DNA of 35,377 nucleotides from Candidatus Altimarinota bacterium (lineage in GTDB: Bacteria > Patescibacteriota > Gracilibacteria > BD1-5 > UBA6164). Below are positions 7,746-30,389 of the stretch, one piece after another. The notes beneath the pieces are model-generated. The model was not told the origin of the DNA. It did not search any database and worked only from the letters and a program-made list of their open reading frames with translations. The position numbers were made by a program, and so were the translations under genes. Location: contig JAQUWS010000010.1 of the NCBI GenBank assembly GCA_028692735.1, forward strand, positions 1 through 35,377, read 5' to 3'. Within the stretch, counting starts at the first letter, position 1. Each line of letters opens with the position of its first letter.

Positions 7746-9626
7746 ATGTTTAACAATGAAAAAATAGTAGAAACAAAAATTTGTAGACAATGTCAAACAA
7801 AGTTTGATATAACAGACAAAGATTTAGAATTCTATGAAAAAATAAGTCCTGTTTTTAAAATACATCACCCTAATCCTCTCCTTATAGGAGATGGGATAGA
7901 AAAGTCCTTCTCAAGAAAGGATAATGATTTAGGATGAGGTTTAAAAGAAATCAAATACTTAATCCCAACTCCCACTCTTTGTCCAGATTGTAGACAACAA
8001 AGAAGATTAGCTTTCAGAAATGAAAGAAAATTATACAAAAGAACCTGTGATGCAACATGAAAACCAATAATTTCAATTTATTCACCTGATAAACCATACA
8101 AAGTATATAATCAAGAATTTTGGTGGAGTGACAAATGGGATGCTTTAAAGTATTGAAAAGAATTTGATTTTAGTAAATCATTTTTTCATCAAATAAAAGA
8201 ATTACTTGATAGTGTTCCAAAACAATGTCTTATATGAGCAAATAATACAAATTCAGAATACACAAATTTAACAGCAAACAATAAAGATTGTTACTATATC
8301 TTTGAAAGTTCAAATAATGAGAATTCATTGTTTTGATATTGGCTTCAAAAAAGCAATAATTGTGTAGATTGTAACTTTATTCATGAATGTGAAAATTGTT
8401 ATGAATGTATGAATTGTTATAATTGTTTTGAATCAAAATTTTTATTTTCATGTAAAAATTGTAGAAATTCATATTTTTTAGAAGATTGTATTTGATGTAA
8501 TAACTGTTTTTGTTGTACAAATCTTGTTAATAAAGAATATTACATATTCAATAAAAAATTTACAAAAGATGAATACTTTAAGGAAATTCAAAATTTGTTA
8601 TTGAATAATATAACAAAACAAAGATTTATAGATTTTTCAAAAAAACAAGTAAAAAAGAATTTAAGGATTCTAAATTCAGATAATTGTATATGAGATCAAA
8701 TAGAAAATTCAAAAAACTGTATAAATTGTTTTCATTCTCATGATGCAGAAGATTGTAAATATTGAGAACATGTTTGGAGAAATGCAAAAAATTGTGTTGA
8801 TGTAAGTACTGCATGAAGAGATGCTAGTTTTATATATGAATCAATTAATTGCTGAATCCAAACTCATAATTTTAAATTTTGTGTACAGTGCTGGAGTTGA
8901 TCAAATATAATGTATAGTTTTTTTTCAGATAATATAAATAATTGTTTCTGATGAGTATGACTAAAAAACAAATCATACTGCATCCTAAACAAACAATATA
9001 CCAAAGAAGAATATGAAAAACTAGTACCAAAAATAATAGAACATATGCAAAAAACATGAGAATGGTGAGAATTTTTTCCATCATCAATGTCTCCATTTTG
9101 ATACAACGAAACAGTTGCGAATGAATATTTCCAATTGAATTCAGATGATATTTTAAATTGTCATTCTGAACTTGTTTCAGAATCATCAAAAGGTATAAAA
9201 TCCTTATTTAATGATTCCGGACTAAATCCGGAATGACAGTCAACATTACTACACTGACAAATATTCAACTGGTCAACATACGAACAACCATTTCCAAAAG
9301 TAGACAAAATTATCCAAGCGTTAAAACTACCAGATGATATTTCTCAAATCCCAGATGATATACTAAATTGGGCAATAGAGTGTGAAATAACAAAAAAGCC
9401 ATTTAGAATAATTAGCCAAGAACTAGAGTTTTACAGAAAACACAATTTACCAATACCAAGAAGACATCCAGACCAAAGGCATCTAGATCGTATGAGTTTA
9501 AGAAATCCAAGAAAACTCTATGATAGAAAATGTGATAAATGTAAAAAAGATATAAAAACAACTTATCCTCCAGATAGACTAGAAATAGTATACTGTGAAG
9601 ACTGTTACAATAAAGAAATCTATTAA
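7746..9626 (+). CDS. paralog D: zinc-finger / Cys-rich repeat protein with two insertions
   Basis: 626 residues, start MFNNEKIVETKIC with finger C13-x2-C16. A type 1 element is inserted between the two cysteine pairs, enlarging the finger loop by about 28 residues (HHPNPLLIGDG...) before YLIPTPTLCPDC. Degenerate second ribbon CDATGKPIIS. Central modules end NLVNKEYYIFNKKFTKDEY and GLKNKSYCILNKQYTKEEY. A type 2 element (9160-9237) fills the tail linker. C-terminal ribbon C596, C599, C617, C620. Shares a 117-bp identical block with E around the second element. Gap of 16 bp to E. In code 11 it would stop soon after the finger, in the first element. Function unknown. Confidence 0.9.
7863..7939. 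repeat. in-frame palindromic element, type 1, in paralog D finger
   Basis: Left arm ATCACCCTAATCCTCTCC, right arm ends GGATGAGG, with GGAGATGGG and TCCTTCTC internal pieces, giving long imperfect pairing. It codes for HHPNPLLIGDG and ends DLGGG where TGA is Gly. CTCACCC...GGGTGAG repeats of this sort are dispersed in many bacterial genomes. Same insertion point as in E and G. Confidence 0.8.
9160..9237. repeat. in-frame palindromic element, type 2, in paralog D tail linker
   Basis: GTCATTCTGAACTTGTTTCA starts the element; it contains GATTCCGGACTAAATCCGGAAT as a second hairpin (quoted arms GATTCCGG and CCGGAATGAC) and ends ATGAC. It translates as CHSELVSES with the right arm NPEG. Identical to the copy in E except the final bases. 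Confidence 0.85.
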
Positions 9627-9642
9627 TTATCAAAACTAATTT

Positions 9643-11517
9643 ATGTTTAATAATGAAAAAGTAGTAGAATCAAAAGTTTGTAGACAATGTCAAACAAAGT
9701 TTGACATAACAAACAAGGATATAGAGTTTTATGAAAAAATTAGTCCTATTTTTAAAATACCTCACCCTAGCCCTCTCCTTACAGGAGATGGGAAAGAAAA
9801 GTCCTTCTCAATAAAGGAGAAGGACTTAGGATGAGGGTTAAAAGAAATCAAATACCTAATCCCAATACCAACACTTTGTCCAGATTGTAGACAACAAAGA
9901 AGATTGGCTTTCAGAAATGAAAGGAAATTGTACAAAAGAACCTGTGATGCAACATGAAAACCAATAATTTCAATATATTCACCAGATAAATTATACAAAG
10001 TATATAATCAAGAATTTTGGTGGAGTGATAAATGGGATGCTTTAAAGTATTGAAAAGAATTTGATTTCAGTAAATCATTTTTTGAACAATATGAAAAGTT
10101 ATATGTTAGTGTTCCAAAGATTTCACTATATGGAAATAATAATGAAAATTCTCTATTTTGAAATGATACAACAAACAACAAAAATTGTTATTTAATTTTT
10201 GCTTCAGATTTTAATGAAAGTTGTTTTTATTGAGTATTTAATAATTCTGTTGATTCTATGGATTCTCTAGAATCAAAAAATATAAACAATTCCTATGAAT
10301 GTTTTAATTGTAGTAATTGAACTAAACTTTTTTATTCAATAGATTCTAATAATTGTACTAACTCATCTTTCTTAATAAATTGTGATAATTGTGAGTATTG
10401 TTATTTATCTCATAATTTGATAAATAAGAAATATTATTTTTTAAATAAACAATATTCCAAAGAAGAATATTTTAATTTGATTTCAAAATTACCTATTTTT
10501 GATGCAAAAAAAATGTTTGCTGAAGTGAGAGAAAAAACAATCTATAAAAATTTAAAAATATCAAATAGTGAAAACTGTTATTGAAACTACATAAAAAATT
10601 CCAAAGATTGTAAATACTGCTTTGATGTTTCTGATTGAAATAATTGTAAATATGTTTATTTCTGAAGTCAAAAATTATCTGATTGTATGGATACAATTAT
10701 GGCAAGTATAAATGCTTCAAAATGTTATGAAGTGCAAACTTGTTTAGAAAACTGTTATAATATAATTTGATGTAATTTTTGTAACAATATACAAAACACA
10801 TATTATTCAGATTCTTGTATAAATTGTTCAAATTGTTTTTGATGTGTATGATTTAGAAATAAATCATATTGTATTTTAAATAAGCAATATACAAAAGATG
10901 AGTATGAAGAATTAGTTCCAAAAATAATAGAACATATGCAAAAAACATGAGAATGGTGAGAATTTTTTCCCTCATCAATATCTCCGTTTTGATACAACGA
11001 AACAGTAGCAAATGAATATTTCCAATTGAATTCAGATGATATTTTAAATTGTCATTCTGAACTTGTTTCAGAATCATCAAAAGGTATAAAATCCTTATTT
11101 AATGATTCCGGACTAAATCCGGAATGATGAAATACTTTTATCCACTGACCAATATTCAACCGGTCAACCTACGAACAAGCATTTCCAAAAGTCGACAAAA
11201 TCATCATAGCATCAAAACTTCCAAAAGATATAAAAGAAATCCCAGATGATATCCTAAACCGGGCAATAGAATGTGAAATAACTAAAAAACCGTTTAGAAT
11301 AATAAGCCAAGAACTAGAGTTTTACAGAAAACACAATTTACCAATACCAAGAAGACATCCAGACCAAAGACATTTAGACCGTATGAGTTTAAGAAATCCA
11401 AGAAAATTATATGATAGAAAATGTGACAAATGTAAAAAAGATATAAAAACAACATATTCTCCAGAAAAGCAAGAAATAGTTTATTGTGAAGATTGTTATA
11501 ATAAAGAAATTTATTAA
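9643..11517 (+). CDS. paralog E: zinc-finger / Cys-rich repeat protein with two insertions
   Basis: 624 residues, start MFNNEKVVESKVC, finger C13-x2-C16. Type 1 element in the finger loop (9760-9837) and type 2 element in the tail linker (11051-11128), so the same combination as its left neighbour D, consistent with D and E arising by tandem duplication. The central region differs strongly from D (SLFGNDTTNNKNCYLIF..., ESKNINNSYECFNCSN), showing that the middle diverges faster than the ends. First module lacks most cysteines at its close (NLINKKYYFLNKQY). C-terminal ribbon C594, C597, C615, C618. Last gene of the A-E run; no hairpin terminator is apparent in the 92 bp that follow. Function unknown. 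Confidence 0.9.
9760..9837. repeat. in-frame palindromic element, type 1, in paralog E finger
   Basis: CCTCACCCTAGCCCTCTCC at the left, GGAGAAGGACTTAGGATGAGG at the right (arms given without the middle). Translates as PHPSPLLTGDG, ending DLGGG through an in-frame TGA. Same position as the D and G copies; the internal AAGTCCTTCTC/GAGAAGGACTT pairing is best preserved here. Confidence 0.8.
11051..11128. repeat. in-frame palindromic element, type 2, in paralog E tail linker
   Basis: Identical to the D copy for all but the last bases, where GGAATGAC has become GGAATGAT and the next codon is a second TGA. The identity extends 40 bases to the left into coding sequence (11011-11127 matches 9120-9236). 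Confidence 0.85.
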
Positions 11518-13919: not shown

Positions 13920-15635
13920 ATGTCATTTCTAAAGGAAAAAATAGTTGAGAAAAAAACTTGTAGTATGTGCCAAGAAGAATTTTCTATTTATGAAAAAGAT
14001 TTAGAAATGCTAGAAAAAATGTCACCAGAAATCAATTGAAAAAAACACTCTTTTTCATTACCAAATAAATGTCCAGAATGTAGAAGAAAAATAAGATATA
14101 CATGGAGAAATACAAATAAATTATTTCGTAGAAAATGTGATGCAACAAATAAAGATATCTTAGCTTTTTATGGCTCTAAAGTAAAACATCCAGTTTATGA
14201 TATAGATTATCGGAATACCGATAGATGGAATCCACTAGATTATGGAAAAGATTTTGATTTTTCTCGTCCATTTTTTGAACAATTTTCTGAATTAAAAGAC
14301 AAAGTTCCACATTATTCAAGAAGTATATTGAGATTTGAAAACAGTGATTATTCAAACAATGCTTCAGACTTAAAAAATTGTTATCTATGCTTTAATTGAT
14401 GACAATCAGAAGATTCTTATTATGTTATAACATTTAAAGATTTGCTAAATTGTGTAGATTGTTTTTCAATAGATAAAAGTGAGAATTGTTATGAATGTAT
14501 AGATGTAGAAAATTGTAATAAAGTTTTTTACTCACAAAATTCAAAAAATTGTTTTAATTCATATTTTATAAAAAATTGCATAAACTGTAGTGATTGTTTT
14601 TTATGCAAAAATCTATCATGAAAGAAATATCATATTTTAAACAAAGCATATTGAAAAGAAGAATATGAAAAAAAAGTTAATGAACTGTTAAAAGACAATA
14701 AAATTTCTAATTTAGAAAAAATATTTAAAGAATTTTCTATAAAATTACCTGAAAAAGCAGTAAATTGATTAAACAATGAAAATATTTTATGAGATTATAT
14801 TTATAATAGTAAAAATATATTTAATTCTTTTTGAATTAAAGAATCTGAAGATTTAAGATATTGTTCAAATTTAAAAGATAATTCAAAATATTTAATTGAC
14901 GTTGATGTTTTTGGTTGGGATCTAGAAAAAAGTTATAATTCAGTAGTTGTATGACATTATTCGGATAATCTATTTTGTTGTTATGATTGTTGGGAAAATT
15001 GCAATAACTTATACTATTGTTCATCATGTGTAAGAAATATAAAAAATTGTTTTTGATGTGTATGATTACACAATAATTATGAATATTGTATTTTAAATAA
15101 ACAATATACTAAAGAAGATTATGAAAAACACGTTTCAAAAATAATAGAAAATATGCAAAAAACATGAGAATGGTGAGAATTTTTTCCACCAAAATTAAGT
15201 GATTATTGATATAACGAAACAGAGTGAATGTTTTTTGATACTATGGCACAAGATTTAGCTATAAAAAGATGATTTAACTGGTCAAGTGAAGAAATATCTT
15301 TACCAAAAGTAGAAAAAATAATTCCAGCATCAAAATTACCAGAAGATATAAAACAAATTCCTGATGATATACTAAATCGGGCAATAGAATGCGAAATAAC
15401 AAAGAAACCTTTTAGAATAATTACACAAGAATTAGAGTTTTATAGGAAACATAATTTACCAATTCCAAGAAGACATCCAGATCAAAGACATCAAGATCGT
15501 ATGGCTTTAAGAAATCCAAGAAAATTATTTGATAGAAAGTGTGATAAATGTTGAAAGGAAATAAAAACTACTTATGCTCCAGATAAACCAGAAATAGTTT
15601 ACTGTGAAGAGTGTTATAATAAAGAAGTATATTAA
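13920..15635 (+). CDS. paralog F: zinc-finger / Cys-rich repeat protein, no insertions
   Basis: 571 residues. Finger C14-x2-C17 with a more divergent loop (FSIYEKDLEMLEKMSP) and CPECRRKIR instead of CRQQRR. Second ribbon reads CDATNKDILAFYGSKVKHP, also degenerate. Central modules end NLSGKKYHILNKAY and GLHNNYEYCILNKQY; the latter has an extra residue. GEWGEFFPPKLSDYGYNETEG precedes the tail (quoted partly: GEWGEFFP). C-terminal ribbon C541, C544, C562, C565. No palindromic element at either site. Its loop and middle differ from A-E, so it is an older branch. The start lies directly after a terminator hairpin, leaving no room for a conventional promoter-leader unless transcription reads through or starts inside the previous gene. 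Function unknown. Confidence 0.9.
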
Positions 15636-15653
15636 TTTTTTTAAAATAATATT

Positions 15654-16025
15654 ATGCAAATATATGAAGATCAATTTATGGTTTTATCTAACAAAAACAA
15701 TATAATAAAACTAACTTGGAAAAAAGAAACTAAGAATCTGGACAATGATTTATTTAAAAATGAAGCTTTAAAATATATAGAAATATTTTAAAAATCAAAC
15801 ATTAAGAATATAATTGTTGATATGAGAAATTTTTGATTTGAATTAAATCAGGAAGTAATAGATTGGAGAAATAAAAATATAATTGCTGTCTACAATGAAA
15901 TTTGACTGAAAAAATTTGCTTTTATAAGTGATAAACCAAGTGTAAAACAAGACAATCAAAAAAATGCCTTTATTACTAGAGATTTTTTCACAGAAGAAGA
16001 AGCTAATAAATGGCTTAATAATTAA
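15654..16025 (+). pseudogene. STAS/SpoIIAA-like small protein with in-frame TAA
   Basis: Reads as a 123-residue protein with one TAA at codon 46 (15789-15791). Both sides match one domain: MQIYEDQFMVLSNKNNIIKL before, then SNIKNIIVDMRNFGFELNQE, IGLKKFAFISDKP and the ending FFTEEEANKWLNN after. The layout resembles STAS/SpoIIAA-like domains. TAA is one substitution away from AAA, CAA or GAA, which would suit the EIF-x-KSN context. It is either a recent pseudogene, a read-through gene, or a sequencing error. Two in-frame TGA glycine codons occur in the second half. It sits between F (18 bp) and G (9 bp), as if inserted into the run. Confidence 0.65.
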
Positions 16026-16034
16026 TTATTTTTT

Positions 16035-18011
16035 ATGTTTCAAAACGAAAAAGTTGTCGAAATAAAAACTTGTAGACATTGTAACTCTAACTTTGACATA
16101 ACAGATAAAGATCAAGAATTTTATGAAAAAGTAAGCCCTATTTTTAAAATACCTCACCCTAGCCCTCTCCTTATAGGAGATGGAAATAACAAATCCTTCT
16201 CAAGAAAAGAGAGGGACTTAGGATGAGGTTTAAAAGAAATCAAATACTTAATCCCAACACCTACACTTTGTCCAGATTGCAGACAACAAAGAAGACTAAG
16301 CTTTAGAAATGAAAGAAAATTATATCATAGAACGTGTGATTTAACATGAAAAGATATAATTTCAGTTTATTCACCAGATAAAGCATATAAAGTTTATGAA
16401 CAAAGTGAATGGTGGTCTGATAAGTGGAATCCATTAGATTATTGAGTTAATTTTGATTTTAAAAGAAGTTTTTTTGAACAATTTTATGAACTAATGAAAA
16501 AGGTTCCATTACAAAGCTTAAATAATAAATTATATGAGAATTGTAGTTATATAAATGATTGTATCTCATGCAAATCTAGTTATCTAACTTTTAACTCAAC
16601 ACATTTTGAAAATACAATGTATTCATATATTCTTAGGGATTGAGCTGATTGTGTTGATACTGATTTTTGTGATAAATGTTTCAATTCATACAATTTAATT
16701 GAGTGTTGATGAAATTCACATTACCTATATTATTCAGCCAAATCTTCAAAATGCTTAAATTCCTATTTTTTATATAATTGTTTTAATTGTGAAAATTGTA
16801 TTTGTTGTACAAATCTTAACAATAAAAAATACTATATTTTCAATGAAGAGTATTCAATAGAATCTTATAAAAAAAAGAAAGATGAATTATTTGAAAAATG
16901 ATTTTCTTTCCTGATTAAAGAGTATAAAAAACTTATAGATAAATCATTCAAAAGACATATGTTTTGATATTCAAATGAAAATGTTTTTTGAGACAATATG
17001 TTTTATAGTAAAAACTGTTATGAATGTTATGATTCAAACCACTTAGAAGATTGTAAATATGTTTATACAGCTATGGAAACAAAAAATTCTCAAGATATTT
17101 ATCTTTTTTGAAATAATTTGGAATTATCTTATGAATCTGTTTTTGTTTGAGAAAATTCATATAAAATTACATTTTCTTATTGATGTAGTGTAAATTGCTA
17201 CAATCTGTTATATTGCTATAATCTTACATCATCTTCAAATTGTTTTTGATGCATTTGACTTCGTAATAAAGAGTATTGTATTTTAAATAAACAATATACA
17301 AAACAACAGTATGAAGAACTAGTACCAAAAATTATAGAACATATGCAAAAAACTTGAGAATGGTGAGAATTTTTCCCAAGTAGTTTAAGTCCATTTTGAT
17401 ACAATGAAACTGTAGCTCAAGAATGGTTTCAACTTAGTCGTAACAATGTTTTAGATTGTCAATCTGAACATCAAAACCGTCATCCTGAACATCAAACCTG
17501 TCATCCTGAACATCAAACCTGTCATCCTGAACATCAACCCCGTCATCCTGAACTTGTTTCAGGATCTATAATGCAATGAAATACAACAAAACATAATATT
17601 AAAGATACTGAAACAAGTTCAGCATGACAATTAAAAAATTGACCAATTTTCAACTGGTCAGATTATGAAGCTCAATTTCCAAAAGTAGAAAAAATAATTC
17701 CGAGCAACAAACTCCCAGACAATATTTCTCAAATTCCAGATGATATACTAAATCGGGCAATAGAATGCGAAATAACTAAAAAACCATTTAGGATAATAAA
17801 ACAAGAACTAGACTTTTACAGAAAACATAACTTACCAATCCCAAGAAGACATCCAAATCAAAGATATTTAGACAGAATGAATCTTAGAAATCCAAGAAAA
17901 CTTTATGATAGAAAGTGTAATAAATGCTGAAAAGATATAAAAACGACCTATTATCCTGAAAGAACTGAAATAGTTTATTGCGAAGAATGTTATAATAAAG
18001 AAGTTTATTAA
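16035..18011 (+). CDS. paralog G: zinc-finger / Cys-rich repeat protein with two insertions
   Basis: 658 residues. Finger C13-x2-C16 (CRHC); type 1 element in its loop (16152-16228). The second ribbon is CDLTGKDIIS with EQSEWWSDKW. Central modules end NLNNKKYYIFNEEYSIESY and GLRNKEYCILNKQYTKQQY. The tail linker holds the largest insertion in the window: four 21-bp units plus a full type 2 palindrome (17458-17628), adding about 60 residues including repeated HPEHQT heptads. C-terminal ribbon C628, C631, C649, C652 (CNKC). From 17542 to about 17925 it is nearly identical to J, 9 kb away, although their central regions differ. Convergent with regulator 2, 15 bp away. Function unknown. Confidence 0.9.
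16152..16228. repeat. in-frame palindromic element, type 1, in paralog G finger
   Basis: CCTCACCCTAGCCCTCTCC left arm and GGATGAGG right end; translates PHPSPLLIGDG ... DLGGG with TGA as Gly. Inner part (GGAAATAACAAATCC) has drifted relative to E. Confidence 0.8.
17458..17628. repeat. type 2 element with four extra 21-bp tandem units, in paralog G
   Basis: Units start at 17458, 17479, 17500 and 17521, each a variant of GTCATCCTGAACATCAAACC plus one base; the fifth, from 17542, is the full left arm GTCATCCTGAACTTGTTTCA. The right arm TGAAACAAGTTCAGCATGAC (17609-17628) pairs with it. Each unit codes for seven residues, (C/R)HPEHQ(T/P). The element is open in frame and includes two TGA-encoded glycines. 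Confidence 0.85.
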
Positions 18012-18026: not shown

Positions 18027-18773
18027 TTAGTTTTTGTCACAATGTTCCCATATAAACTTGAACCAAGTTTTATAACTTTCTGCTAATTCTTTATTTATCA
18101 TAACAAATATTGATCACTTATCTCAAAAATTTCATATTCATACAGAGTTAAATGTAACAACATAATCTCAAAAAACATCAACAATTCAAGGGGTTTCGTA
18201 TCAAAGTGGTAAAAATTTATATTCTCAAGAAGCTGTATTTAGTATATCTTTTCTATCTCTAACTCTAGGATCAAAAATTATTTGAACTTTTTTTCACTTT
18301 TTTTCTAAAGTTTTTTTAAAATTTCCTTCTAGATTTATAGAAATTCAAGGTGTTACCCAGTTTCACTTTGCTCATAAAAAATATGTATCTTCAGCAACTC
18401 TTATTCTATCTCTTATGTAATTTTTATATCATTCAATCCCTTTGTAAATAAAAGCAGATTCTTTTATTTCATTTTTATTTTTTATATTTTCAAGATATGG
18501 AAGAATCTTTTTTAGTGATTGTTCTTTTTCATATACAATTTCAAGAAGTTTTTTTGGATCAGTTGCTACATATAAGTTTTCTTTTTGTCAAAAAATAGGA
18601 AAAATAATTCATTTTTCTATCAATCTTTCAAGTGTATCATAAATACTTCTTCTATGAATATTCGATTTTCTAGCAACTTCTAAAACACTAGCTTCTCAAA
18701 TTTCAAGTATAGCTTCATATATACTTGCTTCATTTTTAGTCATTCCTATTTCTTGTAATTCCTTTTGAAACAT
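18027..18773 (-). CDS. TrmB-like transcriptional regulator 2
   Basis: 248 residues. N-terminal winged helix (GMTKNEASIYEAILEIGEAS, VARKSNIHRRSIYDTLERL, then a GIIFPIF wing) of the TrmB type, followed by a helical linker (KKLLEIVYEKEQSLKKIL) and a C-terminal domain with AEDTYFLGAKG, VQIIFDPRVRDR and VVTFNSVGIG. It has two TGG tryptophans near the end (YKTWFKFIWEHC) beside TGA glycines, so the two codons are kept distinct. It is not closely related to regulators 1 and 3 in the C-terminal half. Divergent from the asparaginase-fold gene with 155 bp between, so it may control that gene. Convergent with G. Confidence 0.9.
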
Positions 18774-18841: not shown

Positions 18842-18859
18842 GATACATATCCCCGTATC
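18842..18859. promoter_or_regulatory. inverted repeat, candidate operator between regulator 2 and asparaginase-like gene
   Basis: GATAC (18842-18846), 8 bases (ATATCCCC), GTATC (18855-18859); the local CCCC is unusual in this AT-rich DNA. Two GTGATA repeats flank it. Position between divergent genes suggests an operator; not proven. Confidence 0.45.
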
Positions 18860-18909
18860 GTGATATTTACGAATTTAAAGGAATAAATATATATTAAATA
18901 CATTATAGT

Positions 18910-18928: not shown

Positions 18929-20134
18929 ATGATTACACAACAATACACTCCTTGACAGCAAGAATTCTTACAAATAGCAGAAAAAGAAGATATCAAAGCA
19001 TCTGTATTTTGAGATATAATACCAGATATCAAATATAAAACAGAAAATTTTGATAATTCTAAGCCAACAATTGCATATTTACATACAGGTTGAACATTAA
19101 TGATGGTTCCAAGTAAAAATGATGAAAATAGATTATCATTTGATTGAGCTATTGATATTCCTAAAGTTATTGAAATTTGTAATTACATTTGTAATTTAGA
19201 AGATAAAATGAATGTGATTGGTATTTATGTTTCCAATATAGATTCAAAAGATGTAATATCAAAATTTTGGCCTATATTTGCTAATACTATAAAAAGTATT
19301 TACAATATAGTTGATTGAACTGTTGTATGACATGGGACCCATACACTTGATTATTCATCTACTGCTATGGCATATGCACTACAAAGATTAGCTAATCCCA
19401 TAGTATTTACTGCTTCTCAAATACCTATATTATGACATCTATGAAGTGATTGATTACCAAACTTAACATGAGCTATGGATATAGCTGCAAACTGAAATAT
19501 AGCAGAAGTATTAGTATATTTTAACTGAAAAATATTAAGAGCTACTAGAGCTTCCAAAGTAGATGATGCAAGATTAGATTGATTTGATTCAAAAGTTATT
19601 CACCCAATATGATATTATACTTGAGCATGAATTGAGATATTTCCAAATAGTTCCATACCAAGATGAAGAAATAGAAAATATGAACTCTCATTTAGCCCAC
19701 ATTTTTCCAATTCAGTATCTTCAATAAAAATAAATCCTTCAACTCATAATAATTCAATACGAGAAATAAAAGAAGCTAGTCAAAATGATGTATGATTTAT
19801 ATTAGAAACATATGGTAGTTGAGCTGTCCCAAAAAATATTGCCCCATCTTTAGAAGAATGTATAAAAGCGGATTTTCCTATTTTTCTAAGTTCTAGTTGT
19901 TGAAATTCTTGAATATCTAATTCTATGCAAAACCATGATGATGATGCAAAAATGATCTCAGATTTATGAATTCCTAATGTATGAGATATGTCTACAACAG
20001 CTGCAGTAGTAAAATTGATGCATATAGTATGAAATAATCCTTGAGCTCCATTAAAATTAATTGTAGATGAAATGCTAAAAAAGTCATATGCTTGAGAAAT
20101 CACTGTAAGTAGAGAAAATACATTTAGATTTTAG
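18929..20134 (+). CDS. asparaginase-fold protein (L-asparaginase I / GatD-like)
   Basis: 401 residues. Asparaginases hydrolyse L-asparagine to aspartate and ammonia; GatD, of the same fold, supplies ammonia to tRNA amidation. Here the first nucleophile motif is present as HTGGTLMMVP (T56 by analogy with the TGGT threonine). IVFTASQIPILGHLGSDG, IAANGNIAEVLVYFNGK, TRASKVDDARLDGFDS and YGSG (295-298) follow, and the C-terminal domain has IPNVGDMSTTAAVVKLMHIVG (shown in part: GDMSTTAAVVKLM). The second catalytic motif, usually HGTDT, is HGTHT at 135-139 (CAT for Asp at 138), which removes a residue that normally contacts substrate. About 50 residues precede the TGG motif, somewhat like GatD, but no GatE is nearby. 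So fold is secure, activity uncertain. Divergent from regulator 2, convergent with regulator 3 (17 bp). Confidence 0.85.
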
Positions 20135-20151: not shown

Positions 20152-20925
20152 CTAATCCTTTTTTATCTCAACTTTTCTGAAAAGAAAGTGCATTATGCTA
20201 GCATATTCTTCGGATTCAATTTTTATTCAATAAGGAATTTCTTTAAAAATTATTATATATACATTATCTCAAAAAATAAATGTTTGAATTGAAGAGTTTG
20301 ATGCAGGTAATTTTGATACATTTTCCATATCACTTCATTTTACTATTTCCTCCAATATAGATATTCCATTTCATAAAAAAACATCAAGGTGTATTTTTTT
20401 GTTTTTTAGTTTTTCTAGAAAATTTGGTGAATATTGAAGGAAATTATTTGAACTTTTATTTTCAAAAGTATTACTAGCAAAAAATTTAATTAACTTATAT
20501 CATTTTTCTCAAGCGGAATTTACTATATCATCATAAATATTTTTAATTCAATCAATTCACTCGTAAAAGATTATGTTTGGTTTTCATGAGAAACTTTGTT
20601 TTTCTAATTCATCAAATTCTTTTTTTAACAAGTGCATATTATCCTTCTTTTTTTCTAATTCATCTACTTCAGCATTTAGTTTATACTCAAAGATATTTTT
20701 ATTAGCAACAAAAAATAATTTAGTTCAATCTTTAGTTATTTCTGATATAAATCATTTTTTAACAAGTTGTAACAAACTCTTATAAGTATTTGTCCTTTCG
20801 TCTCATATGTGTTTTGCTATAGTTGATGCTGGTTTCTTTCAGTATTGATACAAAAATATAAAAATCTGACTTTCTTTTTGTGTAAGTCAAAAACTTTTAA
20901 GTATATCGATTAAATTTTCTCTCAT
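20152..20925 (-). CDS. TrmB-like transcriptional regulator 3
   Basis: 257 residues, clear paralog of regulator 1 (1459-2220): both have the winged helix beginning near GLTQKES/GFSEKES, the linker IKNIYDDI, FASNTxE, VDxFLGNGIS, LPAxNSSI, VYIIIFKxxPxGI and MHFxF near the end. Residues 1-65 are the DNA-binding part (PASTIAKHIGDERTNTYKSL), ~75-110 a K/E-rich helical linker. It is divergent from paralog H with 109 bp between starts, mirroring regulator 1 and A, and shares the upstream TGTGA/TCACA repeat. The inference is that it controls the H-O run and itself. Convergent with the asparaginase-like gene. Confidence 0.9.
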
Positions 20926-21034: not shown

Positions 21035-22954
21035 ATGTCTTTTCAAAACGAAAAAACTGTAGAAACTAAAACTTGTAAACAGTGTCAAAGTAAGTTTGAT
21101 GTAACTGACAAAGATTTAGAATTTTATGAAAAAGTAAGCCCAGTTTTTACTACTTGTCATCCTGAATTCGTTTCAGAATGACAAAGTCAAATAATCAAAA
21201 ATCTTTGAAACTGAAAAATCAAATACCTTATCCCAACACCTACACTTTGTCCTGAGTGTAGACAACAAAGAAGATTGTCTTTTAGGAATGAAAGAAAACT
21301 ATATAAAAGAAAATGTGGGGCTACATGAGAGAATATTATTTCTATTTATTCTCCAGATAAACACTTTAATGTTTATAATCAAGAATTCTGGTGGAGTGAT
21401 AAATGGAATCCTTTGGAATATTGAAAAGACTATGACTTTTCCAAAAGCTTTTTTGAACAATTTAAAGATTTAGCTTTAGTTCAACCTAGAATATCTTTAC
21501 ATAATGTAAATAATGAAGATAGTTTTTTTATTAACCAATGTGGTTATTCAAAAAAGTGTTACTTATCATTTAATACTGATTATTCTGAAAACTGTTATTA
21601 TTGTAATAATGTTTTTAAATCAAATAATTGTTTAGATTTATATAATGCAGATAATTGTGAATTGTGTTACAATAGTGTAGATATAAAAAATAGTTATAAA
21701 ATAAAAGATTCTCAGATATGTAAAAATTGCTCAGATATATATTACTGATATAATTTGGTTAATTGCAAAAACTGTTTTTGATGTATTAATTTATCCAATA
21801 AAGAACATTACATTTTCAATAAAAAATATTCAAAACAAGATTATTATGATAAGGTTAATGAATTACTCAATAATAAAAGTAATAGTTTAGATATTTACAA
21901 CAATTTAAAGCTCCAATTAGCTCACAAATACATTAACATTAACAATAGTGAATCTATTTTATGAGACAATGTTTTTGACAGTAAAAACATGAAATATTGT
22001 TTTGATTGTTTTTCAGATGAAAACTTAGCATATTGTTGTATTGTAAGTGACTGAAAAAATATATATGATTTTGATATTTGATGATATTATTCTGAATTAA
22101 ATTATGAAGTAGTTTCTTCATGAGACAACAATAATAACATTTGTTTTAATTCAAATATATGGTGACATAGTAATAATATATATTATTGTGATATTGTGAT
22201 AAATTCATCTAATCTTTTTTGATGTATTTGAATTCGCAATAAATCCTATTGTATCTTAAATAAACAATATACAAAAGAACAATATGAAGAATTAGTTCCA
22301 AAAATCATAGAACATATGATGAAAACATGAGAATGGTGAGAGTTTTTTCCATCATCAATATCTCCATTTTGATACAATGAAACAGTAGCTCAAGAATTTT
22401 TTCCTTTGAGTCGTGAAGATGTCCTTTATCCCATCATTCCTGCAAAGGCAGGAATCTATAATAATTCCTTGTCATCCTGAACGAATGTTAAGAATCCCTT
22501 TAGCAATGCTAATAATAAAAATGTAAATTTAAGGAATTCTTCGTTACTCTCAGAATGACAAACTATAAACACTTTCCTTCACTGACCCATCTTCAACTGG
22601 TCAGATTATGAAGTCCCTTTTCCAAAGGTAGATAAAATTATTAAAGCAAATATACTTCCAATAAATATAAAAGATATTCCAGATGATATACTAAACTGGG
22701 CAATAGAATGCGAGGTTACAAAGAAACCTTTTAGAATAATTACACAAGAATTAGAGTTTTATAGAAAACATAATTTACCAATTCCAAGAAGACATCCAGA
22801 TCAAAGACACCTTGATAGGATGGCTCTAAGAAATCCAAGAAAATTGTATGATAGAAAATGTGACAAATGTAAAAAAGAAATAGGAACAACATATTCTCCT
22901 GATAGAAAAGAAATAGTTTATTGTGAGGAATGTTATAATAAAGAAATCTATTAA
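21035..22954 (+). CDS. paralog H: zinc-finger / Cys-rich repeat protein with two insertions
   Basis: 639 residues. Finger C14-x2-C17 (CKQC) with a minimal 27-bp element in the loop (21156-21182). Second ribbon reads CGATGENIIS, so the usual CDAT is CGAT. Central region: NADNCELCYNS, NCKNCFGCINL, module ends LSNKEHYIFNKKYSKQDY and GIRNKSYCILNKQYTKEQY. Tail linker holds a composite element (22433-22559) like that in O. C-terminal ribbon C609, C612, C630, C633. First gene of the H-O run, divergent from regulator 3, so the likely promoter-proximal member. A 17-bp-stem terminator follows. Function unknown. Confidence 0.9.
21156..21182. repeat. minimal in-frame palindrome in paralog H finger
   Basis: GTCATCCTGAA and TTCAGAATGAC form an 11-bp stem with one mismatch. 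It is the type 2 outer arms with almost no inner part, coding for CHPEFVSEG with TGA as Gly. It may be an eroded or founding form. Confidence 0.75.
22433..22559. repeat. composite in-frame palindromic element (type 3 + type 2) in paralog H
   Basis: Begins with the type 3 hairpin ATTCCTGCAAAGGCAGGAAT, then GTCATCCTGAACGAATG and, after a middle rich in A, AAGGAATTCTTCG and CAGAATGAC. Nested pairing (AAGAATCCC side with GGAATTCTT side). Here the type 2 part is read in a different frame (TCC TGA ACG) from D, E, I and J, yet remains open because TGA is Gly. Confidence 0.75.
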
Positions 22955-22971
22955 AACTTGTAAAAATGCTG

Positions 22972-23009
22972 AAAATAACTAAATTATATTGTATAATTTA
23001 GTTATTTTT
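22972..23009 (+). terminator. strong hairpin terminator between H and I
   Basis: A perfect 17-bp stem (22972-22988 with 22992-23008), loop TTG, T-run at the end. It ends 7 bases before the ATG of I. The same stem and loop recur between J and K. Confidence 0.85.
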
Positions 23010-23015
23010 GTTAAA

Positions 23016-25001
23016 ATGAATGAAGAAAAAGTAGTTGAAATAAAAATTTGTAAACATTGTAACAATAACTTTGACATAACAAACAAAGATTTAGCCTTTT
23101 ATGAAAAGGTAAGTCCAATGTTTTCTAACTGTCATCCTGAACTTGTTTCAGGATCATTAAAAGGTCAAAACAATTTAAATGATTCCGGATCACGTCCGGA
23201 ATGACAAGTTTTATCTGGGATTAAAGAAGAATCAAACTGAAAAATCAAATACTTAATCCCAACACCAACACTTTGCCCAGATTGTAGACAACAAAGAAGA
23301 CTTAGTTTTAGAAATGAAAGAAATTTATATAAAAGAAAGTGTGATGCAACTTGAAAAGAAATTATTTCAATCTTTTCTCCAAATAACCCTTTTAAAGTAT
23401 ATAATCAAGAGTTTTGGTGGAGTGATAAGTGGAATCCAATGGATTATGGGATAGAATTTGATTTTAAAAGAAGTTTTTTTGAACAGTTTAATAATTTATT
23501 AATTAATTTTCCAAAGAGTAACTTGGTAGCTTCTGAAAATGAGAATTCTGATTTTACAAATCACTCAGCACGGTTAAAAGATTGTTACTTAATTTTTGAT
23601 GCTTGACATGATAGAAATTGTTATTATTCTACAATGATAAATTATTCAAATGATTGTTTAGATTGTTTAAAATTAGAAAATTCTGAATTATGTTATCAAT
23701 GTACTGAATGTAGGTGATGATATAATTTAATTTATAGTGTTAGATGTATTGATTGTAAAAATTCTTATTATTTGTTTGATTGTTTAAATTGTGAAAATTG
23801 TTTTTGATGTAAAAATCTTATAAATAAAAAATATTATATTTTTAATAAAAAATACTCTAAAAAATGATATTTTGAAAAAATAAATAAGTTGATTAACAAC
23901 TGAACTTTTGATGAAAGTCTTATAAAAGAAGTTAAAAAACATATTAACAAATTTCCTTATAAAGAAAATAATATTGTTCAAAGTGAAAATAGTTCATGAA
24001 ATAATATAAACTCAAGCAGAAATGCTATTTATTCTTTTGATGTTTTTGATGTAGATAATGTAAAATATTGTCAATGAATACATAAATCTAAAGATTGCAT
24101 GGACATAACGGTCTGGTGATGAAATCTTAGTAATTCATATTATTGTATGAGTATATGACCTAATGCAAGTAATAATTTATTTACATTTTTATCATATCCT
24201 AATTGTAATAACTTAATATATTGTAGTTATTGTGTAAATTGAACATGTAATTGTTTTGCTTGTACCTGACTTAATAATAAGCAATACTGTATATTAAATA
24301 AACAATATTCAAAAGAACAATACGAAGAGTTAGTACCAAAAATCATAGAACATATGATGAAAACTGGAGAATGGGGAGAGTTTTTTCCAAGTTCAATGAG
24401 TCCTTTTTGATACAATGAAACTGTAGCAAATGAGTATTTTCCACTTAGTCGCTATAATGTTTTAGATTGTTATCCTGAACATCAAACCCGTCATCCTGAA
24501 CATCAAACCTGTCATCCTGAACATCAACCCCGTCATCCTGAACTTGTTTCAGGATCTATAATGCAATGAAATACAACAAAACATAATATTAAAGATACTG
24601 AAACAAGTTCAGCATGACAATTAAAAAATTGACCAATTTTCAATCGGTCAGACTATGAAGCTCCATTTCCAAAGGTAGAAAAGATAATTCCTGCAAACAA
24701 ACTGCCTGACAGCATTTCTCAAATCTCCGATGATATATTAAATCGGGCAATAGAATGTGAGGTTACAAAGAAACCTTTTAGAATAATTAGACAAGAATTA
24801 GAATTTTACAGAAAACATAATTTACCAATACCAAAAAGACATCCAGATCAAAGACACCTAGATAGGATGTCACTTAGAAATCCAAGAAAATTATATGATA
24901 GAAAATGTGACAAATGTAAAAAAGATATAAAAACTACATATTCTCCAAAAAGCCCAGAAATAGTTTATTGTGAAGAATGTTACAATAAAGAAGTTTATTA
25001 A
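23016..25001 (+). CDS. paralog I: zinc-finger / Cys-rich repeat protein with two insertions
   Basis: 661 residues starting MNEEKVVEIKIC, finger C12-x2-C15 (CKHC). An upstream in-frame ATG at 22989 is rejected because it lies in the terminator loop. Type 2 element in the finger (23131-23205), tandem type 2 element in the tail linker (24469-24618). Second ribbon CDATGKEIIS with YNQEFWWSDKW. Central region has a long NCNNLIYCSYCVNGTCNCFACTG run (NCNNLIYC shown). In the GEWGEFFP block Gly is spelled GGA/GGG instead of TGA, unlike its siblings. C-terminal ribbon C631, C634, C652, C655. A 186-bp block around the first element is identical to J. Gap to J is 20 bp. Function unknown. Confidence 0.9.
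23131..23205. repeat. in-frame palindromic element, type 2, in paralog I finger
   Basis: 75 bp from GTCATCCTGAAC to CCGGAATGAC, with CCGGATCACGTCCGG as an inner hairpin. Encodes CHPELVSGS ... SRPEG. Identical to the J copy. Confidence 0.85.
24469..24618. repeat. type 2 element with three extra 21-bp tandem units, in paralog I
   Basis: Units at 24469, 24490 and 24511, full arm from 24532, right arm ending at 24618. One unit fewer than in G. The first unit has GTTATCC for GTCATCC. The inner part (from GGATCTATAATG) matches G and J. Confidence 0.85.
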
Positions 25002-25021
25002 AAATATATAAAAAAGTAATA

Positions 25022-27010
25022 ATGAATCAGGAAAAAATAATAGAAACAAAAACTTGTAAACATTGTCAAACAAAGTTTGATATAACTGACAAAGATTTAG
25101 CCTTTTATGAAAAGGTAAGTCCAATGTTTTCTAACTGTCATCCTGAACTTGTTTCAGGATCATTAAAAGGTCAAAACAATTTAAATGATTCCGGATCACG
25201 TCCGGAATGACAAGTTTTATCTGGGATTAAAGAAGAATCAAACTGAAAAATCAAATACTTAATCCCAACACCAAAACTTTGTCCAGACTGTAGAATGCAG
25301 AGAAGATTAACTTTTAGAAATGAATTTAATTATTATAAGACAAACTGTGACCTATGTAATAAAAATATAATTTCTGTACACTTAAAACAAAATTCAAAGT
25401 TTCCTATTTATTGTCAACACTGTTGGCGGAGTGATCATCGGAATCAATTATGATATTGAGTAGATTTTGATTTTAGTAGGGCTTTCTTTAAACAATATCT
25501 AGATTTACAAAACAAAGTTCCAAAAATCAATATGATAAATGATAACTGAGTTAATAGTGAAAATTCAGAGTATTGTTACAACTTTTCATATTGAAAAAAT
25601 AATTACTTAATTACTACTGCATGGCATGCTGAAGAATCTATGTATTGTCAATATTGATGATATTTCAAATACAACATAGATTGTAATCTCATATTTAAAT
25701 CAGAAATTGCATATGAATGTTCTGGTTGAAGTGACATATATAATTGCTTCTTCTTAAATGACTCAAACAATTGTAATAACTGTTTCTTATGAATTGATTT
25801 AAAAGGATGTTCAAATTGTTTTTGATGTATTTGATTAAGAAATAAAAAGTATTATATATTTAATAAAAAATATGAAAAAGAAGAATATGAAAAAATAACT
25901 AAAAATTATTTGAATTGATCATATAAACAATTACAAGAAATAAAAAAAGAATTTTATGATTTTTCTCTTAAATATCCTCGTATAGCAACTCATCAAAATA
26001 ATTGTACAAATAGTATTTGAGATAGATTAAATAATTGTAAAAATGTATTGTGAAACAATATTTATAATTGAGAAAATTGTAAATATTACTGGTGATGAGC
26101 TGATAGCCCAAGAATGAGTTATGATATATTTATATGATGAAATCATGATTTATGATATGATTCAATTGTTCCAGATAACACTTATCAAGCTTGTTTTACA
26201 AATTATTGTGATAATAGTAAGTTTGTATTTTATTCTGATAATTGTTTTAGTTGTTCAAATATTTTTTGATGTATCTGACTTCGAGACAAATCATATTGTA
26301 TTTTAAATAAACAATATACAAAACAAGAGTATGAAATACTAGTACCAAAAATCATAGAACATATGCAAAAAACTTGAGAATGGTGAGAATTTTTCCCAAG
26401 TAGTTTAAGTCCATTTTGATATAACGAAACTCTAGCAAATGAGTATTTTCCACTTAGTCGCTATAATGTTTTAGATTGTCATCCTGAACATCAATCCCGT
26501 CATCCTGATTCTCAATCCCGTCATCCTGAACATCAAACCCGTCATCCTGAACTTGTTTCAGGATCTATAATGCAATGAAATACAACAAAACATAATATTA
26601 AAGATACTAAAACAAGTTCAGCATGACAATTAAAAAATTGACCAATTTTCAACTGGTCAGATTATGAAGCTCAATTTCCAAAAGTAGAAAAAATAATTCC
26701 GAGCAACAAACTCCCAGACAGTATTTCTCAAATTCCAGATGATATACTAAATCGGGCAATAGAATGTGAAATAACTAAAAAACCTTTTAAGATAATTAAA
26801 CAAGAACTAGACTTTTACAGAAAACATAACTTACCAATCCCAAGAAGACATCCAAATCAAAGATATTTAGACAGAATGAATCTTAGAAATCCAAGAAAAC
26901 TTTATGATAGAAAGTGTGATAAATGTTGAAAAAATATAAAAACGACTTATGCTCCAGATAGAAGTGAAATAATTTATTGTGAAGAATGTTATGAAAAACA
27001 AGTTTACTAA
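25022..27010 (+). CDS. paralog J: zinc-finger / Cys-rich repeat protein with intact second ribbon
   Basis: 662 residues, longest in the set. Finger C12-x2-C15 with a type 2 element in the loop. Uniquely here, the second ribbon is complete: C109-D-L-C112, 18 residues, C131-Q-H-C134, where siblings have CDAT and NQEF; the following WRSDHRNQ matches their WWSDKW. This explains the siblings' segment as a decayed zinc ribbon. Central region has module ends GLRNKKYYIFNKKYEKEEY and GLRDKSYCILNKQY. A tandem type 2 element is in the tail linker. C-terminal ribbon C632, C635, C653, C656. From 26541 on it is nearly identical to G, while the finger block is identical to I, so the gene is a mosaic. Ends QVY rather than EVY. 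A duplicated hairpin follows. Function unknown. Confidence 0.9.
25137..25211. repeat. in-frame palindromic element, type 2, in paralog J finger
   Basis: 75-bp copy identical to 23131-23205. The identity extends beyond the element on both sides: 25089-25274 equals 23083-23268. Confidence 0.85.
26478..26627. repeat. type 2 element with three extra 21-bp tandem units, in paralog J
   Basis: Units at 26478, 26499 and 26520, full arm from 26541, right arm ending 26627. The second unit is divergent (GTCATCCTGATTCTCAATCC). Encodes CHPEHQS, RHPDSQS, RHPEHQT and RHPELVSGS. Confidence 0.85.
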
Positions 27011-27034
27011 TACTAATAAACTTGTAAAAACAGT

Positions 27035-27073
27035 AAAAATAACTAAATTATATTGTATAATTTAGTTATTTTT
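27035..27073 (+). terminator. strong hairpin terminator between J and K
   Basis: A perfect 18-bp stem (27035-27052 with 27056-27073), loop TTG, essentially the same sequence as 22972-23008. It ends 4 bases before the ATG of K. A short stretch before it, ACTTGTAAAAA, is also shared with the H-I gap. Confidence 0.85.
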
Positions 27074-27077
27074 ATTT

Positions 27078-28676
27078 ATGCAAGAAAAAATAGTAGAAAC
27101 AAAATTCTGTAATCAATGTTTAATTAATTTTGATATAACTGATATAGATATTGAATTTTTAGATAAACTTTCACCTATTATAGCATGACAGAAATTTCAA
27201 ATCCCTATCCCTAAATTATGTCCAAATTGCCGTAAAACTCAAAGACTTGCATGGAGAGTTGAAACAAAACTATATAAAAGAAAATGTGATTTTAGTTGAA
27301 ATGATATAATTTCATGGTTTAAACCAGATATCCCTTATACTGTTTATGATGAAAAAATATGGGATTCAGATAAATGGAATCCTCTAGATTATTGAAAAGA
27401 TATTGATTTTTCAAAAACAATTTTTGAACAATTTTATGAACTTTTACTAAAAGTTCCTTTACCATCAAAATGAACAGTAGGGAATGAAAATTCAGATTAT
27501 TGTAATTCAAGTTCTTACTTAAAAAATTGTTATTTAACATTTTCTGCAAATTATTCAGAAGATATTTACTATTGTGTTGATATAGTAAAAAGTAGTACTT
27601 GTGTTGATTGTATATGAGTAATTGAGTCTGAAAATTGTTATGAATGTTCAGCAACTTTAAAATGATATAATCTTGAACATTGTTATGATACAAAAAATTG
27701 TAGTGATTCAAAATTTCTTCTTTCTTGTGAATGATGTTCTGACTGTTATGGATGTTTCTGACTTATAAATTCTAAATATCATATTTTTAATACTCAATAT
27801 TCAAAAGAAAAATATTTAGAAAAATACAAAGAAATTATTTCGCAAACTTTATCTGAACAAAAAATACAATTCAAAAATTTTTATACTTGAAAATATATAA
27901 AAAGTATTCTACCAAATACTTGATCTGAAAATGTTTATGAAAGTGAAAATATAATAAATAGTGAAAATGTTAGTCATTGTCGTCATGCATATTGAGCTCA
28001 AAATATTAGGTATTGTCAAAGAATGCAAACTCCAATAATAAATCTAGCTATGGATTTTACTTGATTTGGTAATAATGCTGAAAAGATATATTATTCTCAA
28101 CAAGTTTGAAATAATTCTTTAAGTGTATATTTTTCTAGTAGCTGTTTTAATGAGATTTCAAATATTTTTTATTCTATGTTTTGTAGAAACAATGTTTCAA
28201 ATTGTTTTGCTTGTATTTGAATTAGAAATTCATCTTATTGCATATTAAACAAACAATATACCAAAGAACAGTATGAAGAATTAGTTCCAAAAATAATTGA
28301 ACATATGATAAACTCTTGAGAATGGTGAGAATTTTTCCCAGCAAATTTTTGTCCAAATTGATATAATGACTCTATTTCGCAGATTATAAAACCTTTAACA
28401 AAACAAGAAGCAATAGCATTGTGATTTAATTGGTCTGACTACGAGGCACCTTTTCCAAAAGTAGACAAGATTATACCCGCTAATAAATTACCAGAAGATA
28501 TAAAAGAAATCCCTGATGACATACTTAATCGGGCAGTAGAATGTGAAATAACTAAAAAACCTTTTAGGATAATCAAGCCAGAATTAGAATTTTATAGGAA
28601 ACATAATTTACCTATTCCAAAAAGACATCCAGACCAAAGATACAAAGATAGGTTAGAATGGTACATTAATTATTAA
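27078..28676 (+). CDS. paralog K: zinc-finger / Cys-rich repeat protein, C-terminal ribbon absent
   Basis: 532 residues. Finger C11-x2-C14 (CNQC) with CPNCRKTQR; loop FDITDIDIEFLDKLSP. Second ribbon CDFSGNDIIS. Central modules end GLINSKYHIFNTQY and GIRNSSYCILNKQYTKEQY; the second module has few cysteines. The tail is conserved through NLPIPKRHPDQRYKDR and then ends LEWYINY, so the last ~40 residues including CxxC-x17-CxxC are missing. This looks like a natural shorter form, since O has a similar RYK-x-R-L ending, rather than a frameshift. No palindromic elements. Start is directly after the J-K hairpin; only 9 bp to L. Function unknown. Confidence 0.9.
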
Positions 28677-28685
28677 TCACTATTA

Positions 28686-30389
28686 ATGCAAGAAGTACAA
28701 CAAGAAACAAAAAAATGTAAAAATTGTGATTCTTTATTTGATATTACTCAAAGTGATATAGATATTTATAAAAAACTATCACCGATTTTTTGATGAAGTA
28801 GATATGATATACCATATCCAGCTTTATGTCCAGATTGTAGACAACAAAGGAGGCTAGCTTTTAGAACAGAAAGAAAATTATACAAAAGAAAATGTGATAT
28901 TACTTGAAAAAATCTTATTTCAGTTTATTCTCCAAATAATAATGATATAGTTTATGAATATGATTATTGGTGGAGTGATAAATGGGATGCAATTGATTAT
29001 TGAGTCAATTTTGATTTTTCAAAAACTTTTTTTAAACAAATCCAAGACTTATCTTTAAAAGTCCCAAAACCTCATATTGAGATTAGCTTTAGTGAAAATT
29101 GTGAATTTACAAATCAATCATGATATAATAAAAATTCATACTTAATTTTTGAGGCATGATACAATGAAAACTGTTTATATTCAAGAAGCATACGGCACTC
29201 AACCAATACTATTGATGTTTTGTACACAAGAAATGCTCATAATTGCTATGAATGTATTGATTGTGAAAATATCTATAATGTTAAATTTTCATATAGAGTA
29301 AATGACAGTAAAGATTCCCAATACTTATTTGATTGTAATAATTGTGAATATTGTATTTGATGTTGGAACTTAATTTGAAAAAAATATTTTATATTAAACA
29401 AACAATATACTAAAAAAGAGTATGAAGAATTTCTAATAAAATTTAATACGGATAGCAATTTCAGAAAAAACTTTATAGATGATTTACACAAGAAAAAAAT
29501 AAAGCTAGGAATCAATAAAAATCTTAATAATCTTTTATCTCAAAATGTACTTTGAGACGGTATTATCTCTTCAAAAAATTCTCTATGATACAACATAAAA
29601 GAAAGTGAAGATTGTAGATATTGTTATGATGTATATTTATCTGAAACTTGTATGGATTATACATATTGGGGAAACAATGCTAGTCTAATTTATGAATGTT
29701 TAAATGTATGAAACTGAGCTCATAAAACTATTTTTTGTCTATCATGCTATGATAATGTAGATAATCTTATATATTGTATAAACTGTGTTAATAACTCATC
29801 AAACTGTTTTTGATGTGTCTGATTAAAAAATAAAAGTTATTGTATTTTTAATAAACAATATTCAAAAGATGAGTATGAAATCTTAGTTCCTCAAATAATT
29901 GCTCATATGCAAAAGACTTGAGAATGGTGAGAATTTTTTCCACCAAATATATTTACTTTTTGATACAACAATACAGTTGCTATGGAATATTATCCTTTAA
30001 CAAAAGAACAAGCTCTTGAAAAATTATTCCTATGGGATGATTACGAACAAGAAATTTCAAAAGTAGAAAAAATAATTTCCGCAAACAAACTTCCAGACAA
30101 TATAAAAGACATCCCAGATGATATACTAAATCGGATAATAGAATGTGAAATTACAAAAAAGCCCTTTAGAATAATTAAACAAGAACTTGAGTTTTACAGA
30201 AAACACAATTTACCAATCCCAAGAAAAAGTTTTGATCAAAGACACCTTGAAAGAATGCAACAAAAGAACCAAAGAAAACTATTTGATAGAAAATGTGATA
30301 AATGTTGAAACGATATAAAAACCACTTATCCACCTGAAATGAAAGGAAAAGTATATTGAGCAAAGTGTTATGATGAGGAGATTTATTAA
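28686..30389 (+). CDS. paralog L: zinc-finger / Cys-rich repeat protein with damaged C-terminal ribbon
   Basis: 567 residues, finger C11-x2-C14 (CKNC), loop FDITQSDIDIYKKLSP, CPDCRQQRR. Second ribbon CDITGKNLIS with WWSDKW. Module ends NLIGKKYFILNKQYTKKEY and GLKNKSYCIFNKQYSKDEY. The C-terminal ribbon has C537, C540 and C561, but position 558, normally Cys, is Gly: codon TGA in place of TGT. Under a standard code this would be a nonsense change; here it is a one-base missense that removes a zinc ligand. The tail also has KSFDQRH for RHPDQRH and PEMKGKVY for PERPEIVY. No elements. Followed by a hairpin without T-run (30391-30415) and then M. Function unknown. Confidence 0.9.

Follow-up and report, generated by a model that had tools for sequence, protein, structure and literature searches.

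A subfamily of asparaginase-fold proteins with histidine in place of the HGTDT aspartate

The aspartate and lysine referred to as Asp90 and Lys162 are described as invariant in all L-asparaginases and indispensable (consulted sections of PMC6667453). What, then, becomes of the active site, and of the reaction, when the aspartate of the HGTDT motif is a histidine? The question is raised by a gene in the middle of the DNA analysed here, a stretch of 35,377 nucleotides from a Candidatus Altimarinota bacterium (contig JAQUWS010000010.1; hereafter "the window"). The gene lies on the plus strand at 18929..20134 and encodes, under genetic code 25 with 26 TGA codons read as Gly, a protein of 401 residues with the domains PF00710 and PF17763 and a predicted asparaginase fold. 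Its motif at 19331..19345 (plus strand; CATGGGACCCATACA) reads CAT GGG ACC CAT ACA in frame, i.e. H135-G136-T137-H138-T139, the substituted codon being the CAT of His138 at 19340-19342 (plus strand). The initial annotation had read this as HGTHT in place of HGTDT, and had suggested changed chemistry or a non-enzymatic role. The substitution itself is confirmed: HGTHT aligns gap-free to HGTDT in four PDB alignments among the matches listed, with type I asparaginases of Yersinia and E. coli.

We therefore asked what kind of protein carries the motif. A Pfam scan returned Asparaginase N (1.5e-38) and Asparaginase C (7.1e-12), both above cut-off, and the solved proteins nearest by sequence are, among the matches listed, type I asparaginases. 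The TGGT motif (19085..19096, plus strand), which holds the nucleophile-equivalent Thr56, and the YGSG motif are both found in the translated ORF, as had been claimed. Against the NCBIfam type I model TIGR00519, the protein reaches 152.3 bits and falls short of the curated cut-off of 260.5; against two GatD equivalog models it reaches 128.9 and 121.4 bits (cut-offs 310 and 324, respectively). Most ordinary homologues align to it only from about residue 40-48 onward. The N-terminal extension (residues 1-45; 18929..19063, plus strand) has residues kept in all four members of the subfamily described below, namely Q10, F13, L14, A17, F27, G28, P32, I34 and E39. Structure prediction gave a pLDDT of 44.8 from three sequences, and of 78.8 with a pTM of 0.83 from seven. 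The latter model superimposes on guinea pig type I asparaginase (5dnd) with a Z-score of 35.4 and 2.4 Å over 325 residues, on type I entries, bacterial enzymes included, with Z-scores of 31-35 (VIA-align), and on GatD (1zq1) with a Z-score of 35.1. By the features tested, the HGTHT protein is an asparaginase-fold variant and not a type I L-asparaginase.

CAT and GAT are one base apart and the window genome is a draft of 98 contigs, so the histidine might reflect a sequencing or assembly error, or a pseudo-asparaginase in decay. A search of 379 genomes of the phylum yielded one relative of the window protein, 47% identical and also with HGTHT, in G245, a Peribacteria genome which uses the standard code and belongs to another family of the window genome's class. 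A two-member model built from the proteins of G245 and of the window genome (G000) was then run against 353 genomes of the class, and scored G245 at 788 bits, G000 at 747 and G588, a genus-mate of G245, at 568, everything else lying at or below 180; given how the model was built, only the 568 bits of G588 is an independent score. The two-member alignment used as a query of genome_contigs gave two loci, one in Peribacteria, presumably the G245 locus, and one in a Kerfeldbacteria genome. A single-protein peptide-pattern search had no match in genome_contigs or viral_contigs, nor did a four-member alignment search of viral_contigs, and the HGTHT form was found in no other genome among the 10 of the Kerfeldbacteria genome's order and 380 sampled from its class, that genome itself included.

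HGTHT is present in all four distinct proteins of the subfamily. The three others are 46-52% identical to the window protein, all ORFs are full-length, the genomes are separate and span two genetic codes, and the four proteins form one clade with long branches and an SH-aLRT support of 100 in a quick tree. Because all four keep the histidine at only 46-52% identity, its presence is more than chance. The orthologue alignment proposed in the initial annotation thus excludes uniformly Asp-bearing orthologues and refutes a sequencing error, and decay or artefact as an explanation is hardly credible. Within the clade, the G588 protein is closer to that of Kerfeldbacteria (62%) than to that of its genus-mate G245 (55%), which suggests horizontal transfer.

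How much of the catalytic machinery is left? The catalytic residues of type I asparaginases are given as Thr, Tyr, Thr, Asp and Lys, with the Tyr contributed by the partner subunit, in the consulted part of a review (PMC8256714), which describes the proton route of these enzymes as not clarified. According to calculations on guinea pig type I asparaginase (PMC12128190, in the sections consulted), Tyr308' activates Thr19 and the proton passes via water to Asp117, which is the HGTDT aspartate; Asp117 and Asp84 also hold the substrate amine, and the Asp84-Ser85 pair is substrate-binding. In the HGTHT subfamily, TGGT with Thr56, Asp105-Ser106, Thr137, His138, Lys210 and His336-Asp337 are invariant in all four members. 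Asp105-Ser106 (19241..19246, plus strand) would, by alignment, be the equivalents of Asp84-Ser85. Lys210 (19556..19558, plus strand) aligns with the lysine of the Thr-Lys-Asp triad and is also found in homologues on viral contigs; loss of the triad lysine is thereby ruled out. The C-terminal motifs, previously described as intact, are not. The column of the type I catalytic Tyr holds Q, E, Q and V in the four members, the loop that surrounds it is three residues longer and has no Tyr ahead of the conserved His336-Asp337 (19934..19939, plus strand), and none of the four retains the Glu of the DMTxEAA motif usually present in the C-terminal part. Aligned across the three-residue insertion, His336 would occupy the place of the Tyr. 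In the predicted model, residues 324-330 within this loop have pLDDT values below 50, and the loop of the partner subunit cannot be placed because the model is a monomer. At the level of sequence, therefore, an HGTHT subfamily exists, in which His138 is fixed in the four known members and the Tyr loop has a new form that includes His336-Asp337.

Together, the change at the Tyr site and the published roles of the aspartate make the changed chemistry suggested in the initial annotation likely. We see an even chance that these proteins make up a subfamily of their own among class 1 (type I-like) asparaginase-fold amidohydrolases, with the Tyr'-Asp proton relay replaced and, together with it, one amine-binding Asp. 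Thr56 would still attack the amide, Thr137 and Lys210 would still protonate the leaving ammonia, and proton acceptance may have been taken over by His138 and/or His336'. The natural substrate would be an amide whose alpha-amine is modified or missing, and probably not free L-Asn, because the HGTDT Asp that binds the alpha-ammonium is gone; a complete loss of amine binding is argued against by the second amine-binding residue, Asp105, which is kept. A fully specified version, in which His138 and a dyad contributed by the partner subunit, His336'-Asp337', make up a Thr-His-Asp arrangement, the substrate is an alpha-amine-free amide and the TrmB-type regulator described below acts as the switch by sensing substrate or product, is in our judgement quite improbable.

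Two other explanations have to be weighed against a replaced relay. Firstly, His138, perhaps with His336'-Asp337', may merely stand in for the Asp of an ordinary L-asparaginase/glutaminase acting on the same substrate, more slowly or at another pH. PF00710 searches found one further asparaginase gene in the window genome, of the T-N-N type (Thr, Asn and Asn at the nucleophile, Asp and Tyr' sites), the HGTHT gene alone in G245 and G588, and the HGTHT gene with one degenerate relative in the Kerfeldbacteria genome. A canonical Thr/Asp/Tyr copy was thus not found by this search in the four draft genomes with the HGTHT form, as expected if the variant does the ordinary job, although an absence that rests on a PF00710 search of drafts is not proven. 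Ser106, which binds the alpha-carboxylate, and Asp105 are retained, which also suits an ordinary substrate. Yet Asp90 is reported as critical for binding canonical substrates (consulted sections of PMC6667453) and the NCBIfam type I cut-off is missed, and we regard this explanation as unlikely. Secondly, hydrolysis may simply have gone with the Asp, since the E. coli type II double mutant in which Asp90 and Lys162 are replaced is dead (same sections of PMC6667453). The protein would then be a non-enzymatic, ligand-binding paralogue, serving as a sensor, a store or a partner of the TrmB-like regulator with which it has a promoter in common. The need for Asp90 in canonical substrate binding (PMC6667453, as consulted) points the same way; the invariance of the catalytic residues Thr56, Thr137 and Lys210 in all four members points the other, and with Asp105-Ser106 equally invariant, the non-enzymatic role raised in the initial annotation is possible but not favoured. 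We found no account of the HGTHT variant in the open-access literature searched, whose scope excluded subscription papers, and it goes unmentioned in the consulted sections of a survey of bacterial asparaginases (PMC9500103).

If a relay has been replaced, how do other members of the fold vary at the same sites? Among 103 distinct asparaginase-fold ORFs, taken from the best-scoring genome loci and hence not a random sample, 50 have D at the Asp position, 42 have N, 4 have H and 3 (short HGTYT ORFs) have Y, with another residue or a gap in the other 4. The 98 ORFs of at least 300 residues were aligned jointly with 13 further sequences, nine from plasmid records that belong to other phyla and four from viral contigs, and twelve divergent rows were removed (L104, L112, L114, L116, L118, L119, L120, L139, L141, L142, L143 and L144), leaving 99, mostly from Patescibacteria. 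At the nucleophile, Asp and Tyr' sites, these are T-D-Y (50 rows), S-N-Y (19), S-N-F (7), T-N-N (15) and T-H-(Q,E,Q,V) (4), with G-D-Y, C-D-F, V-D-Y and T-N-gap, the last an Arthrobacter plasmid record, as singletons. The active-site states are thus nearly discrete: Thr/Asp/Tyr, Ser/Asn/(Tyr,Phe), Thr/Asn/Asn and Thr/His/(His-Asp loop). A quick tree, computed after removal of the Asp and Tyr' columns and with SH-aLRT as its only support measure, calls for a single change in the His clade and likewise in the Ser clade (support 100 for each), and for three in the T-N-N state.

The two sites of the relay could then be compared. We took the non-Ser rows that have Asp or Asn at the first site and Tyr, Phe or Asn at the second (Tyr'), leaving out the Arthrobacter row; the two sites match in all 68 of these rows. 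The inferred changes number three at each site and three jointly, and all three independent pairs go in the same direction (sign test p = 0.25, too few for significance); with the Ser-type rows included, three of four pairs do so and one shows no difference. The Ser-type clade breaks the coupling, as its 26 rows combine Asn with Tyr or Phe. We read this as Tyr' and Asp switching as a unit outside the Ser clade, on the strength of three inferred changes. The His clade fits such a coupling but adds no test of it, being of single origin.

Other variants came to light in the same survey. The Ser clade (L018-L021, L023-L026, L028-L032, L034, L037, L052, L057, L061-L064, L066 and L069-L072) has Ser for the nucleophile Thr and HGTNT for HGTDT; in 24 of its 26 rows Gly-Ser replaces Asp-Ser, so that both amine-binding Asp sites are altered. 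The HGTYT ORFs (L113, L117 and L121) are short asparaginase N-domain ORFs of 128-186 residues from genomes of the Kerfeldbacteria order. In G705, an ORF of 825 residues (L112/L164), divergent from a TrmB-like gene, comprises two asparaginase folds; in the first, Ala sits at the nucleophile site and Asn at the Lys site, and the second has HGTDT.

Does the neighbourhood of the HGTHT gene tell the remaining explanations apart? Divergent from it lies a TrmB-family regulator gene (18027..18773, minus strand; Pfam TrmB 4.6e-15, 55.7 bits for a cut-off of 25.6), whose product scores far under the cut-off of the NCBIfam TrmB equivalog. In the Kerfeldbacteria genome an orthologue, 51% identical, is divergent from the HGTHT gene at the same position; an adjacent divergent TrmB orthologue is thus seen for two of the four members. 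In G245 a remote TrmB relative lies about 0.7 kb from the HGTHT gene with another ORF between, and in G588 one lies 3.4 kb away. We examined 42 TrmB loci (12 + 30, drawn from the top-scoring matches in the 41 and 37 genomes that gave any), of which 8 have an asparaginase on the divergent side of the TrmB gene. Besides the two HGTHT loci, the divergent partner of the TrmB orthologue is a T-N-N asparaginase in G013, G017 and G018, two short and degenerate asparaginase-like genes in G664, the 825-residue double protein in G705 and, with an ORF that by eye resembles a membrane transporter in between, a T-N-N asparaginase in G753. Of the other 34 loci, 32 have no asparaginase match in the flanks examined; L079 begins inside the TrmB gene, its divergent side lying outside the locus, and a partial asparaginase match near the TrmB gene of G940 (L165) was set aside, another ORF lying between.

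A strong TrmB-like gene of this kind is found in the locus of 0 of 39 canonical and 7 of 59 non-canonical asparaginase ORFs of at least 300 residues (Fisher p = 0.040, in a test that ignores kinship, three of the seven being from one genus, and that scores only the first domain of G705). All seven TrmB-linked ORFs lack the complete canonical active-site set as aligned, and G664 adds its short degenerate pair, which is what a ligand-binding partner of the regulator would lead one to expect. That weight is reduced by the kinship within the seven and by the unscored second domain of G705 with its HGTDT, while the transporter-like ORF that adjoins the TrmB-linked asparaginase of G753 suits metabolism. 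Nor does linkage to TrmB imply sensing: in Pyrococcus furiosus, TrmBL1 binds upstream of the L-asparaginase gene PF2047, whose expression is up under gluconeogenic conditions and which is annotated as an ordinary enzyme (PMC4706686, in the parts consulted). A known TrmB-family regulator of an ordinary asparaginase gene favours an ordinary enzyme here as well, but by analogy the precedent fits both enzymatic readings. A protein without hydrolytic activity therefore seems to us improbable, to the same degree as an ordinary asparaginase.

A candidate TrmB operator, TATCCCCGTATCGTGATA, lies between the two genes (18848..18865, no strand assigned), with one of 12 positions mismatched against TATCAC-N6-GTGATA. 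It is the only TATCNC-N6-GTGATA match in 1.53 Mb of the window genome, the reversed control pattern having two. With about 0.6 matches of up to one mismatch expected in the window by chance, and two for the control, the argument for this operator is its place and not its count. In the 200 bases before TrmB-like genes, an N6 palindrome with at most 2 of 12 mismatches is found in 17 of 42 cases versus 15 of 840 shuffles, the N6 form having been picked after inspection of the promoters. The Kerfeldbacteria promoter has one mismatch at N5 spacing and four at N6. A longer box, GGTGRTATTTRCCACTC, stands just before many TrmB-like genes (L077-L183) with 0-2 mismatches, suggesting a widely shared candidate operator. 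The window has no copy of it, even with 3 mismatches allowed, and a 15-base version has no match in 1.53 Mb of the window genome at up to 1 mismatch; because of this, the operator in the window is claimed through its central palindrome only. An Rfam scan of the window returned nothing at gathering scores. Under the replaced-relay reading, the divergent regulator would control both the HGTHT gene and itself via the palindrome between them.

The rest of the window has a different content. Most of it (2355-11517, 13920-18011 and 21035-35376) is made up of fifteen paralogues of a Cys-rich protein; two members that were scanned gave weak, below-cut-off matches to CxxC treble-clef models (PF23477, and TIGR04272 for one of them). 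Several paralogues, e.g. 7746-9626, 9643-11517, 16035-18011, 22989-25001 and 25022-27010, contain in-frame repeated peptides (ELVSGS, IPAKAGI, HPEHQ and GGGLKEI types) in corresponding places, and these resemble repeat elements inserted within reading frames. The window holds a further pair of TrmB-like genes, at 1459-2220 and 20152-20925, which share 42% identity and each of which is divergent from one Cys-rich paralogue. Relatives of the TrmB-like regulator at 18027..18773, in G655 (L085) and G637 (L087), other genomes of the class, are 48% and 44% identical to it and adjoin the same Cys-rich family.

An aspartate called invariant in all L-asparaginases (PMC6667453, as consulted) is thus naturally replaced, by His in one clade, while Asn takes its place in other clades. 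Except in the Ser-type clade, the partner Tyr is seen to change along with it. Such natural variants could serve to test how the proton travels in type I asparaginases, and they make the name "asparaginase" unsafe for many Patescibacteria genes.

How, finally, does the HGTHT pair compare with known systems? With Thermococcales TrmB/TrmBL1 the regulator shares the TrmB domain, together with a similar candidate palindrome in the promoter and a presumed target gene of the asparaginase family. The Pyrococcus target PF2047 is listed as a singleton gene, whereas the asparaginase-fold gene of the window is divergent with its putative regulator, and the glycolytic/TrmBL1 motif, TATCAC-N5-GTGATA, has a spacing of 5 (PMC4706686, parts consulted); the palindromes described here often have 6, and that of Kerfeldbacteria 5. 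With type I L-asparaginase (E. coli AnsA, guinea pig ASNase1) the protein has in common the two-domain fold, the TGGT Thr, the HGT Thr, the Asp-Ser pair and the Lys; it differs in the His for the HGTDT Asp, in a His-Asp loop without Tyr, in the extra N-terminal 45 residues and in a score below the NCBIfam cut-off. GatD, subunit D of the archaeal Glu-tRNA(Gln) amidotransferase, has the same fold, but the HGTHT protein stays far under both GatD equivalog cut-offs; GatD keeps HGTDT and needs GatE. In the T-N-N (HGTNT) proteins of Patescibacteria both relay sites are likewise replaced and the Thr and Lys kept, and those of G013, G017 and G018 have a divergent TrmB orthologue, as the HGTHT gene of the window does; they differ in having Asn at both sites, in lacking the three-residue loop insertion and in belonging to other clades.
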